Source: Singulisphaera sp. GP187 (GTDB lineage: Bacteria > Planctomycetota > Planctomycetia > Gemmatales > Gemmataceae). From it: DNA of 64,000 bases. The DNA is taken from the NCBI GenBank assembly GCA_945861245.1, contig CAMAUE010000008.1, forward strand, positions 1-64,000. Reading direction: 5' to 3'. Below are positions 31,316-36,097 of the stretch, piece by piece. The position numbers were made by a program, and so were the translations under genes. How positions within the stretch are numbered: the stretch's first letter is position 1; each line of letters starts with the position of its first letter. A model generated the notes under the pieces. That model made no database searches and was not told the DNA's origin. It worked only from the letters and a program-made list of their open reading frames with translations.

Positions 31316-32167
31316 TTACGCCGCCTTGCGTGCAACGATCGTGATGCCATAACGGTCCGCCAGGGCGACGGTGTCGTCCTGATCGATGAAGATCGTCCGG
31401 TCGGCCTCGATCGCCAAGACGCGGGCGCCGGCTGTGCGCATCGATTCGATCGTTGTGACGCCGACGGTCGGTACGTCGAAGCGCATGTCCTGTTGCGGCT
31501 TGGCGACTTTGACGACGACGATGCCGCCGCGCGGGCATAACTCGCCGGCGCGAAGGATTGCGCGATCGGTGCCTTCGATCGCTTCGACGGCGAGCACGGC
31601 TTTTTCGCGGACGGCGACGCTTTGGCCTACGTCCAGCCGGCCCATTTCCTTGGCCATTTCCCAGCCGAATTCGATATCGGCCTGTTCCGATGATGACACG
31701 CCACGTCTGGTGAGTATTCCCGGTTTCACGAGCAACTCCGGACAAAAATCGAGTGCCGAGCGGAACGTTAAACCGTCCCGCGCGAATTCGTCGATGACGC
31801 TAAGTGTTAGAGCATCGTCGCGATTGTCTTTCCGCCTGCGGAAGAAATACCAGACGAACGTGCGCCAGTCGGGCAAGAGATTCCAAAGGCGGTACGGCGT
31901 ATTGAGCCGCACCTTGTGGACTTTGCCTGCCATGACGATTTCGCGCACGCCGTCGCCTTTGAAGCAGCGGATCACGCGACCCATGCGCGAGAAGCCGGCC
32001 CAGTGAAAGCGATCACACAGCGCGGCGAGTTCCTCGGAAGCCTCGCCGATGATACCGACGCCGACGACGGGGATTTGCAGTTCGCGTGCCTTGCGAGCGA
32101 AGAGAATCGGAAAACGCCCGCTGCCGGCGAGCAATCCGACGGGGGATGATGTCGTGAGATCGGGCAT
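31316..32167 (-). CDS. lpxI: LpxI-type UDP-2,3-diacylglucosamine pyrophosphatase
   Basis: LpxI (formerly DUF1009) cleaves UDP-2,3-diacylglucosamine to lipid X and UMP in lipid A synthesis, replacing LpxH in many bacteria. The 283-residue protein has the family's start (P-V-G-L-L-A-G-S-G-R-F-P), the M-A-G-K-V-H-K motif and the conserved C-terminal part with A-V-R-E-K-A-V-L-A-V-E-A-I-E-G-T-D. Its start at 32167 lies one base after the lpxD stop codon, which implies translational coupling in an lpxD-lpxI operon. Confidence 0.93.
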   Translation of the reverse strand: MPDLTTSSPVGLLAGSGRFPILFARKARELQIPVVGVGIIGEASEELAALCDRFHWAGFSRMGRVIRCFKGDGVREIVMAGKVHKVRLNTPYRLWNLLPDWRTFVWYFFRRRKDNRDDALTLSVIDEFARDGLTFRSALDFCPELLVKPGILTRRGVSSSEQADIEFGWEMAKEMGRLDVGQSVAVREKAVLAVEAIEGTDRAILRAGELCPRGGIVVVKVAKPQQDMRFDVPTVGVTTIESMRTAGARVLAIEADRTIFIDQDDTVALADRYGITIVARKAA

Positions 32168-32168
32168 G

Positions 32169-33218
32169 TCACGCTGCCTTCTCATGGGCGTAGTCTTCGG
32201 TCAAACCTAGGTGTTTCAGGATGCGCAAGAGGTCACGCCGCATTTCGGGAAGTTTGCACGTGAGGTTGTAAATACGGCTGGTCGCGCGATCACTCTGGGC
32301 AGGGGAGCCGTAAATACGCGAGCCGGCGGCGATCTCGTGCATGACGCCTGATTGGGCGCCGATCACTGCGCCATCGCCGATCGAAATGTGATCCTTGATC
32401 CCAACTTGGCCTCCCATGACGACATAGTTACCGGTGGTGCACGATCCGCCGATGCCGGTTTGGGCCGCCAGAAGGTTGTGCTTGCCGATCTTGCAATTGT
32501 GGGCGACCTGCACATGGTTGTCGATTTTCGTGCCGTCGTCGATGATGGTCTGCTCAAAGGCGCCACCGTCGATGGTCGCGCAGGCACCGATCTCGACGTC
32601 ATTGCCGATGCGTACCCCGCCGACTTGCGGGACCTTTACATGCTTGCCCTGATGGAAACGATAACCGAATCCGTCAGCGCCGATGACCGTATTGGCGTGG
32701 ATGATGCAGCGATCGCCGACCATGATGTTGTTATAGAGGACAACATTCGGGAACAGCACGACGTCGTTGCCGATTCGGCAGTTCTTGCCGATGACAACCC
32801 CGGAATGCAATTGGCAGTGATCGCCGATTGTTGTGTTATCGTTGACGACGGCGAACGCGTGAATGGTCGGATCGGCGCCGACTCGCACACCCGCCCCAAG
32901 GACGGCCTTCGCGTGGATGCCGCTGGATTTGGTTGCCACTATGCCGCGCATGGTTTGGAGAATGCAGGCAAAGGCCATCAGTGGATCACTGCATTCGATC
33001 GTTGTCTTGCCGACGAAGTTGGTTCCGATTGGCACGACGGCGACACTCGCTGCGCTCTGTTCGAGCTTGGCAAGGTAGGAAGGATTCTCGACAAAGGTAA
33101 TGTCGCCTGATTTGGCCTCTTGCAGTGTGTGAGCGGCCTGCACTGGCATCGCGCCATCGCCCACGACGTTGCCATGAACCAACTCCGCAAGCTGGTGAAC
33201 GGTGTAAGGCACGAGCAT
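32169..33218 (-). CDS. lpxD: UDP-3-O-acylglucosamine N-acyltransferase
   Basis: LpxD adds the N-linked acyl chain in lipid A synthesis. The 349-residue protein has an N-terminal uridine-binding domain (F-V-E-N-P-S-Y near residue 42) and a left-handed beta-helix of hexapeptide repeats (about 100-320). The catalytic His in V-A-H-N is H240. A C-terminal helix follows. In the IDxGA motif the usual Arg is Gly. GAAAGGAT lies before the ATG at 33218, preferred over the frame from 33293. It is followed directly by lpxI. Confidence 0.95.
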   Translation of the reverse strand: MLVPYTVHQLAELVHGNVVGDGAMPVQAAHTLQEAKSGDITFVENPSYLAKLEQSAASVAVVPIGTNFVGKTTIECSDPLMAFACILQTMRGIVATKSSGIHAKAVLGAGVRVGADPTIHAFAVVNDNTTIGDHCQLHSGVVIGKNCRIGNDVVLFPNVVLYNNIMVGDRCIIHANTVIGADGFGYRFHQGKHVKVPQVGGVRIGNDVEIGACATIDGGAFEQTIIDDGTKIDNHVQVAHNCKIGKHNLLAAQTGIGGSCTTGNYVVMGGQVGIKDHISIGDGAVIGAQSGVMHEIAAGSRIYGSPAQSDRATSRIYNLTCKLPEMRRDLLRILKHLGLTEDYAHEKAA

Positions 33219-33462
33219 ATCCTTTCTTCCTTGAAAGTCGGCGGCGCGTAGTGTCATCGCGGGTTCCGCCGAATCATACGCAATCGCATTCATAGAAGCA
33301 AGCGAAGTTCCCGCCGCGCATGGCAGCGCCCCAGCCTCGCCGGTTTACGCACTTTGCCAACTAAATAGTGACGGGGTAAGCAGTTTCCTTCTCAGGATCG
33401 GCACGTTCGACCTGGAAATTCACTGGAATTGGGACATTTCTCGCCCATCTCGACTCCGACAT

Positions 33463-34337: not shown

Positions 34338-35555
34338 CTACCGAAACGTCACCTTCAGATCGAAGCGTTTTCCTTCGCGCACGATGTTGAGAGTCGCGGT
34401 TTCGCCGATGAGGTAGTTTTGGCGGATGTAGCCGAGAAACTGCTCCATTGACAGATGCAACGTGCGGTTATCGATGCCGACGATGATGTCGTTTTCGCGC
34501 ACGCCCATCTTCAAGACTGCGGGATGGATCGGCGTTTCCTGGCGGAAAGCGACGTGTGTTTCCTCGAAGCCCAGGCCCTTTTTCTCCTTGGCGGTCAAGT
34601 CGCTGCCGTAGATGGTGATCGAGGGCAGCAAGTCCATGAGCGACGGTCGCCAGGTGATGTTGGTACGCTTCCACTCGGGTTCGAGGACGAGTTTGCCAAT
34701 TGCCGATTTGCCGTCGCGCTGCCAGGTGATGTCGATGTCGCCCTTGGGCGGCGCTTTGTGCAGGGCAAATTGCACGTCGGCGAACGAACGCACGGAGAGG
34801 CGGTTGAGTGTGTCGAGCAGGTCGCCTGGCTTCAGCCCGATCTTCGCCGCCGGCGAGTTCGGCTTCACATCGCTGACCAGGTTGCCTTTATCGCGATTCA
34901 GTGTGATGCCAATGTTCTCCGGCAAGGGATAGGTGTAGACCTTGTCGCGATGCCAGGTACCGGCCTTCATGTCCTCGGTTCGCAGGATTTCCTTAACCTG
35001 ATGGCAGTGGATGCAGCCGCGGTAGCCGTTGGCGGACGCCACCTTCTCGATAATCAATGGCGGTCGCGGCGGCGTGCTTGGTTTCGCCTCCGGGTCTTTG
35101 CGATGCTCGACGAGGGCCGCCTCCATGGCGTAGCGCAGTCCTTCGAGCGAGTTACGCGTATCCGGACCCTTGCCGTCGCGCCCGCCGAAGCGACCGTAAA
35201 TCTTACCTGATGGATTCATGAAAAACGCGACCCACGTCAGGTCGAAATCGAACTCGAACAGATTGAGATCGGCACCCGATACACGCAAAATTCGCGTGCG
35301 GACGAATTGGTCGGCGACGCCTTCCAGTTTTTCCAGACGGACAACCTGCCCGTCAAATTTATGGCAATCGCTTCAAGGGTCGCAGCGAAAAACGACCATC
35401 ATCGGCCTGCCGGTCTTTTGGGCAAGAGTCCGAGCCGAGGCGAGGTCGTTGAACCAACCCTTCTGCGCCCCGATTTTCGTGGCCGGGCTTTGTGCGATCA
35501 GCGAATTGCCACAGAAAAGGCCGAGGAAGATAGCAAGAGAATAACGCATGTGCAT
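34338..35555 (-). CDS. Candidate selenoprotein: thioredoxin-fold protein with CxxCH motif and two PDZ domains
   Basis: The frame is open from 35555 to 34338 except for a TGA at 35375-35373. Read as selenocysteine, the product has about 405 residues: signal peptide (1-25), thioredoxin-like domain (about 30-150) with R-C-D-P-U-S-D-C-H-K-F-D, so U61 and C64 form a UxxC redox motif; a C-I-H-C-H motif at 181-185 that could bind haem c; then two PDZ domains (about 215-300 and 315-400). The flanking protein (G-R-P-M-M-V-V-F before, F-D-L-T-W-V-A-F-F after) is typical of this fold. A SECIS-like hairpin follows the TGA. The alternative is a nonsense mutation of a Cys codon. Confidence 0.75.
35336..35354 (-). 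promoter_or_regulatory. Candidate bacterial SECIS hairpin
   Basis: On the minus strand GACGGGCA-GGT-TGTCCGTC forms an 8-bp stem (one G-U pair) with a GGU apical loop. The loop begins 26 bases after the in-frame TGA, inside the usual 16-37 base window for bacterial SECIS elements, whose apical loop carries a GU. Confidence 0.65.
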
Positions 35556-35585: not shown

Positions 35586-35664
35586 GTTTAGCCGCTCGCC
35601 TCTGGCGAGCGCGGACGCGACGTACTGCGAATGAGCCGCGCTCGCCAAAGGCGAGCGGCTAAAC
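35586..35664. repeat. Palindromic repeat, family C copy 2
   Basis: Arms of 27 bases at 35586-35612 and 35638-35664 pair with one mismatch. It lies just upstream of the candidate selenoprotein gene. Confidence 0.92.
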
Positions 35665-35689: not shown

Positions 35690-36097
35690 CTACTTATCCT
35701 TGTCCTTCGCGGGCGTTTTGAGCACGGTCACTTTCTCTGCACGGAAGCGTTCCTCGTAGACCCATTCGACTTCGACGCGGCTGCCGATTTTGATGGCGTC
35801 AAAGTTCTTCAGCATCTCTTTGTCAAGCCCGCCGCCTGCCGACGGAGCGCCGCCCTTCCAATGCGGCACGAAGCGACGCGACTTTTCGTCGCCCGGCGCT
35901 TTGACTTCGATGGAGTTCTTATCCTTGGAGACCAACGTACCGACGTAGGTTCCCTTTTTTCCTTCCAGCGGATTTTTTTCCTTCTTCTTGTCTTTTTCCT
36001 GTGCGTTCGCGGCCGACGTCTCGACGGGCGAGAACACGCTTATGCCAAACGCCAGTGCGAGTGATGTGACAGCTATTCCGGTGATGCGATGGATCAT
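35690..36097 (-). CDS. Small secreted protein of unknown function
   Basis: The 135-residue product has a signal peptide (about 1-31, ending near S-A-A-N-A-Q), a Lys/Glu-rich linker and a small beta-rich domain (about 48-125) with G-T-Y-V-G-T-L-V and I-K-I-G-S-R-V-E-V-E-W-V motifs, like an OB or SH3-type barrel. It lies upstream of the candidate selenoprotein gene on the same strand, with a family C palindrome between. I cannot name the family. Confidence 0.75.
   Translation of the reverse strand: MIHRITGIAVTSLALAFGISVFSPVETSAANAQEKDKKKEKNPLEGKKGTYVGTLVSKDKNSIEVKAPGDEKSRRFVPHWKGGAPSAGGGLDKEMLKNFDAIKIGSRVEVEWVYEERFRAEKVTVLKTPAKDKDK

Follow-up and report, generated by a model that had tools for sequence, protein, structure and literature searches.

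The window analyzed here, a 64-kb stretch of DNA, comes from a Gemmataceae bacterium (Planctomycetota) whose genome assembly comprises 6.04 Mb in 289 contigs and is 94.7% complete. On the minus strand, a reading frame of 405 codons followed by a TAG stop runs from an ATG at 35555 to 34338 and is open from start to finish apart from a single internal TGA at codon 61 (35375-35373), where the surrounding residues read R-C-D-P-U-S-D-C. A first-pass annotation of this DNA had described this frame as broken by that one TGA, which re-reading the frame confirmed, and had proposed that the UGA encodes selenocysteine (Sec) in a thioredoxin-PDZ protein. That proposal is now supported by the presence of the Sec machinery in the genome, by homologues carrying either TGA or Cys at this codon, and by covariation in a hairpin downstream of the UGA. 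The features of the locus, all on the minus strand, are as follows.

35690..36097, minus: conserved upstream gene for a 135-aa secreted protein without a Pfam match; a similar ORF lies directly upstream on the same strand at 19 loci, a count that includes the window and two near-copies
34338..35555, minus: trx7_PDZ gene, almost certainly a selenoprotein gene with Sec at codon 61; frame open except for one TGA, NF041199 match of 444.2 bits, TGA in approximately 60 homologues
35493..35555, minus: probable N-terminal signal peptide (residues 1-21), suggested by the hydrophobic run that follows MHMR; pLDDT under 50 over residues 1-27
35211..35456, minus: Thioredoxin_7 domain, residues 34-115; PF13899 at 42.2 bits (cut-off 27), AF2 mean pLDDT 92.5, Foldseek matches to ERp18/AGR2
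35382..35384, minus: codon of Cys58, three residues ahead of Sec61 and its invariant partner (Sec instead of Cys in the UxxU relatives)
35373..35375, minus: predicted Sec codon UGA for residue 61, which aligns with the leading Cys of canonical thioredoxin CxxC
35364..35366, minus: codon of Cys64, the second thioredoxin Cys position, lost in 17 of 158 relatives
35336..35354, minus: predicted SECIS hairpin GACGGGCA-GGU-UGUCCGUC; 8 bp, 3-nt loop, -10.5 kcal/mol
35001..35015, minus: C-x-H-C-H motif (residues 181-185) in the stretch linking the thioredoxin domain to the PDZ domain
34707..34913, minus: PDZ domain, residues 215-283; PF13180, PF17820 and DegP/DegQ PDZ matches
34347..34607, minus: second PDZ-like domain, approximately residues 317-403; two stretches matching PF13180, two stretches in DegP-type chains, AF2 secondary structure

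An inverted repeat (AGCCGCTCGCC..GGCGAGCG / CGCTCGCC..GGCGAGCGGCT) lies at approximately 35588-35660, in the gap separating the selenoprotein gene from its upstream neighbour. Downstream, adjoining LpxI and LpxD genes (31316-33293, minus strand) give this planctomycete two genes of the lipid A pathway.

Domain architecture and family membership

The protein scored 444.2 bits against the NCBIfam family NF041199, 'Trx7/PDZ domain-containing (seleno)protein' (trx7_PDZ_seleno), for which the cut-off is 300. It has the domain order of that family, i.e., Thioredoxin_7 (PF13899) followed by PDZ (PF17820/PF13180), and its CxxU motif, present as C58-D-P-U61 with the in-frame UGA. A 2026 review lists NF041199 as 'Trx7/PDZ domain-containing protein' with the motif CxxU and one Sec (PMC13188914). 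A 2022 review includes a selenoprotein 'PDZ domain-containing protein, pfam13899, CxxU', credited to the 2008 GOS survey (PMC9312934), and the survey itself reports a 'putative secreted serine protease MucD' selenoprotein with CxxU (PMC2398784), which is probably the same family as NF041199. Scoring 444 bits for an already catalogued family, the gene is an addition to that family and shows no essential difference from NF041199 in domain order, CxxU motif, single Sec or downstream bSECIS. The first-pass description of a 'UxxC thioredoxin-PDZ selenoprotein' is supported as to the selenoprotein; the family had already been catalogued, and its motif is CxxU. The gene very probably encodes a secreted NF041199 Trx7/PDZ selenoprotein. 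The same family model matched all 106 members of our representative alignment at an E value of 1e-10 or better, and ten members tested, drawn from all three Cys/Sec states described below (CxxC, CxxU and UxxU), each passed its cut-off.

The PDZ domains are of the same type as those of the DegP/DegQ (HtrA) proteases. The trypsin-like protease domain of HtrA/DegP is absent from the Pfam matches, which consist of PDZ and thioredoxin domains only. A plasmid search returned PDZ matches only, one of them to an annotated Do-type protease. As PDZ domains also dominated the fold search with the whole model, the N-terminal module was modelled alone, and its nearest solved folds were those of ERp18 and AGR2. 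ERp18/TXNDC12 and AGR2/AGR3 share the Thioredoxin_7 fold, and in a profile alignment of the N-terminal module with AGR2, U61 is matched to the only active Cys of CPHS and C64 to its Ser. Unlike ERp18, AGR2 and AGR3, the protein encoded here is bacterial, predicted to contain Sec, fused to PDZ domains, and equipped with an extra Cys three residues ahead of the active residue.

Between the thioredoxin and PDZ domains, C181, C184 and H185 are present in 106/106 aligned members and H183 in 105, the sole exception being one H183R, and the CxHCH motif is kept across all three Cys/Sec states. The residues C181-I-H-C-H185 have the form of the CxxCH heme attachment motif of c-type cytochromes; no cytochrome c domain or fold was found by Pfam or among the best Foldseek matches listed. 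The motif is probably, and we say so with reserve, a second redox site or a metal/heme site.

The in-frame UGA, its hairpin and the selenocysteine machinery

In 95 genomes from the same family group, approximately 60 close homologues carry one in-frame TGA each, a few of them two, and a more distant clade carries none. In the Gemmataceae bacterium Baikal-deep-G178 (Planctomycetota), the only relative returned by a scan of named genomes, the homologue is 99% identical over the protein. The TGA is found at the same codon in a relative genome of 99% identity and in relatives down to approximately 35% identity, with the downstream protein conserved. The host genome itself encodes a paralogue (L002, on contig C146 of genome G000) of 36% identity with an in-frame TGA in the motif CKHURDE, no downstream Cys and hence no UxxC, and a normal TGA stop at its end. 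Aligning homologues, a check that the first-pass annotation had proposed, revealed TGA or Cys in the column of residue 61 throughout and never another residue.

The first-pass annotation had also pointed to a hairpin with an 8-bp stem and a GGU loop 26 bases after the UGA and had suggested folding the RNA downstream of the TGA. We found this hairpin (35354-35336) in both the MFE and the centroid folds, with the stem beginning 18 nt and the loop 26 nt past the UGA. The published bSECIS rules call for a loop of 3-9 nt, a stem of 4-16 bp, a G in the first two loop positions, a spacing of 16-37 nt and an MFE of at most -7.5 kcal/mol (PMC13188914), and the hairpin agrees with all of them (3 nt, 8 bp, GGU, 26 nt and -10.5 kcal/mol). 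The folding energy of the single sequence is not significant (z -1.24, with 28/200 shuffles equally stable), and as such, the case for the hairpin rests on comparison. Likewise, an Rfam search of the window returned zero matches, so the SECIS had to be tested comparatively. ARAGORN found zero tRNAs in the window.

Among relatives, the loop reads GGU in 59/59 TGA-bearing sequences, and in 53/59 the Val found there is encoded by GTT, which makes up 15% of the Val codons in the rest of these genes. Since RNAalifold recovered only four inner pairs from the alignment, we counted the full 8-bp stem directly: 95.5% of cells were paired (56 distinct rows), and double-sided changes occurred in 27 cells versus 5.6 expected in shuffles, with 0/500 shuffles as high. 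One stem pair is seen as GC, AU, CG and GU among relatives. The hairpin lies over the conserved coding motif FDxQVVRL, so its conservation is partly due to the protein; nevertheless, the Val codon bias and the compensatory pairs are beyond what protein constraint explains. When the bSECIS rules were applied at the homologous position, 54/73 CxxU genes and 43/56 UxxU genes passed, most of the failing TGA genes still showing this hairpin but with a stem that is shorter or weaker. In comparison, the rules were passed by 3/29 CxxC genes and, as a chance rate, by 9.8% of other codon positions in family genes. The CxxC forms are without the SECIS hairpin, three in 29 being the chance level.

Searching the genome for selA, selB, selC (tRNA-Sec) and selD, as the first-pass annotation had also suggested, turned up every component. 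The tRNA-Sec was detected by Rfam at 69.8 bits (cut-off 47) and by ARAGORN with the anticodon tca, and selA (564 bits), selB (363 bits) and selD (286 bits) each scored above the curated cut-off. The SelB product carries a C-terminal SelB-wing_3 domain (PF09107), a domain that binds SECIS in known systems. At the level of the phylum, where 122/392 genomes have a homologue, selA is present in 70/76 genomes with a TGA-bearing copy versus 16/44 with only TGA-free copies; the Fisher p-value of 1e-10 overstates the strength of this association because the test takes related genomes as independent. The six TGA-bearing genomes in which selA was not matched are all drafts, and several are incomplete assemblies.

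The internal TGA is almost certainly read as Sec, and three other readings have to be set against this one. A TGA is one base away from TGC or TGT, and the first-pass annotation had allowed that a nonsense mutation might have left a pseudogene. We regard this as practically excluded, the TGA being retained in dozens of relatives, among them the 99%-identical one, those reaching to approximately 35% identity and the paralogue, with the downstream protein conserved, the SECIS covarying and the Sec machinery present. Standard ORF calling gives a 316-aa product from a TTG at 35288, downstream of the TGA, as would be expected of two genes, one for a short piece of thioredoxin that stops at the UGA and another for a separate PDZ protein. 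However, the PF13899 match (residues 34-115) spans the UGA, the region folds as one domain in the model, and the cysteine-form homologues are single continuous ORFs, all of which makes two genes very unlikely. The frame would also be open under any code in which UGA is a sense codon, whether by stop-codon reassignment or by SelB-independent readthrough. Against the insertion of another amino acid stand the use of UGA as a terminator within the family (by the paralogue), the presence of Sec tRNA, SelB and SECIS together, and the homologous residue being Cys rather than Trp or Gly; we give this reading hardly any credence.

Cysteine and selenocysteine states among relatives

We classified 158 sequences from 132 genomes and 36 family groups as CxxU (73), UxxU (56) or CxxC (29), counts that are not prevalences since the sequences were fetched by choice with TGA-bearing copies favoured. 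The state UxxC was not seen among them. In the UxxU relatives (L037, L085, L086, L087 and many of L098-L171), residues 58 and 61 are both predicted to be Sec, with two UGAs nine nucleotides apart and a single SECIS. Measured to the loop, the spacing is usually 34-35 nt for the first UGA and 25-26 nt for the second, and because both values fall within the published 16-37 nt, one hairpin could serve both UGAs. Searching the literature for a bacterial SECIS that decodes two UGAs retrieved nothing relevant. The review table (PMC13188914) gives the family as CxxU with one Sec and does not contain the double-Sec relatives found here. Other families that it lists as UxxU, i.e., Prx-like, putative mercuric reductase and FmdB, resemble relatives such as L098-L171 in having two Sec two residues apart; they are unrelated to Trx7/PDZ, and the protein at 34338-35555 has only one Sec.

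With the motif columns masked, the tree requires no fewer than 16 state changes and shows the CxxU and UxxU forms interleaved; it was a rapid FastTree reconstruction in which many nodes are weak, so the count is approximate. Read from their sequences, the Trx7/PDZ relatives show one or both motif cysteines swapped between sulfur and selenium many times. More tentatively, the family may form a natural series (CxxC, CxxU, UxxU) marked by repeated interchange of Cys and Sec at two neighbouring redox positions, with one SECIS serving two UGAs in the UxxU form and a diselenide-capable centre placed beside an invariant CxHCH heme/metal site; we consider this extended picture possible rather than probable.

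Proposed activity and significance

Based on the conserved parts, SelB and Sec-tRNA(Sec) would bind the GGU-loop hairpin 26 nt past the UGA and thereby place Sec at residue 61. The protein would then be exported, consistent with the probable signal peptide at residues 1-21. Lying at the reactive-Cys site of the ERp18/AGR2-type thioredoxin folds, Sec61 is probably the nucleophile of a thiol/selenol oxidoreductase, to which the two HtrA-type PDZ domains would probably recruit protein clients. The activity that we consider most likely, with about even confidence, is that of a thiol/selenol oxidoreductase working on protein clients in the periplasm; peroxide reduction and redox sensing are the alternatives.

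The full motif, C58-x-x-U61-x-x-C64 (CxxUxxC), offers two possible partners for Sec61. Conservation suggests that Sec61 would form a selenylsulfide with the invariant Cys58 and that Cys64 would be an accessory cysteine, position 58 being Cys or Sec in all 158 classified relatives. If the functional pair were instead Sec61-Cys64, i.e., the canonical UxxC, the mechanism would differ and Sec insertion would be unaffected. This pairing agrees with the AGR2 alignment, in which U61 and C64 hold both thioredoxin motif positions, and with the retention of C64 in 141/158 relatives. On the other hand, another residue replaces C64 in the remaining 17, including the paralogue, and position 58 is always Cys or Sec; we therefore consider Sec61-Cys64 unlikely, though a good deal less so than the readings without Sec. 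The first-pass annotation had proposed this UxxC pair, and its placement of U61 on the first thioredoxin Cys holds in the AGR2 alignment, whereas the invariant partner has turned out to be C58. Judging from the alignment, the published label CxxU fits the conserved pair of C58 and U61.

The family is known in the literature from metagenomic surveys, and our comparison finds it to be widespread in Planctomycetota; the gene described here contributes a well-supported selenoprotein of an uncultured Gemmataceae bacterium to it. Ordinary ORF callers would split or truncate such genes. For specialist follow-up, the double-Sec UxxU form and the recurrent Cys/Sec switching are more interesting than the trx7_PDZ gene itself. 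The matched CxxC, CxxU and UxxU proteins provide a system for asking what selenium adds at each position, and the UxxU genes provide one for asking how a single SECIS decodes two closely spaced UGAs.
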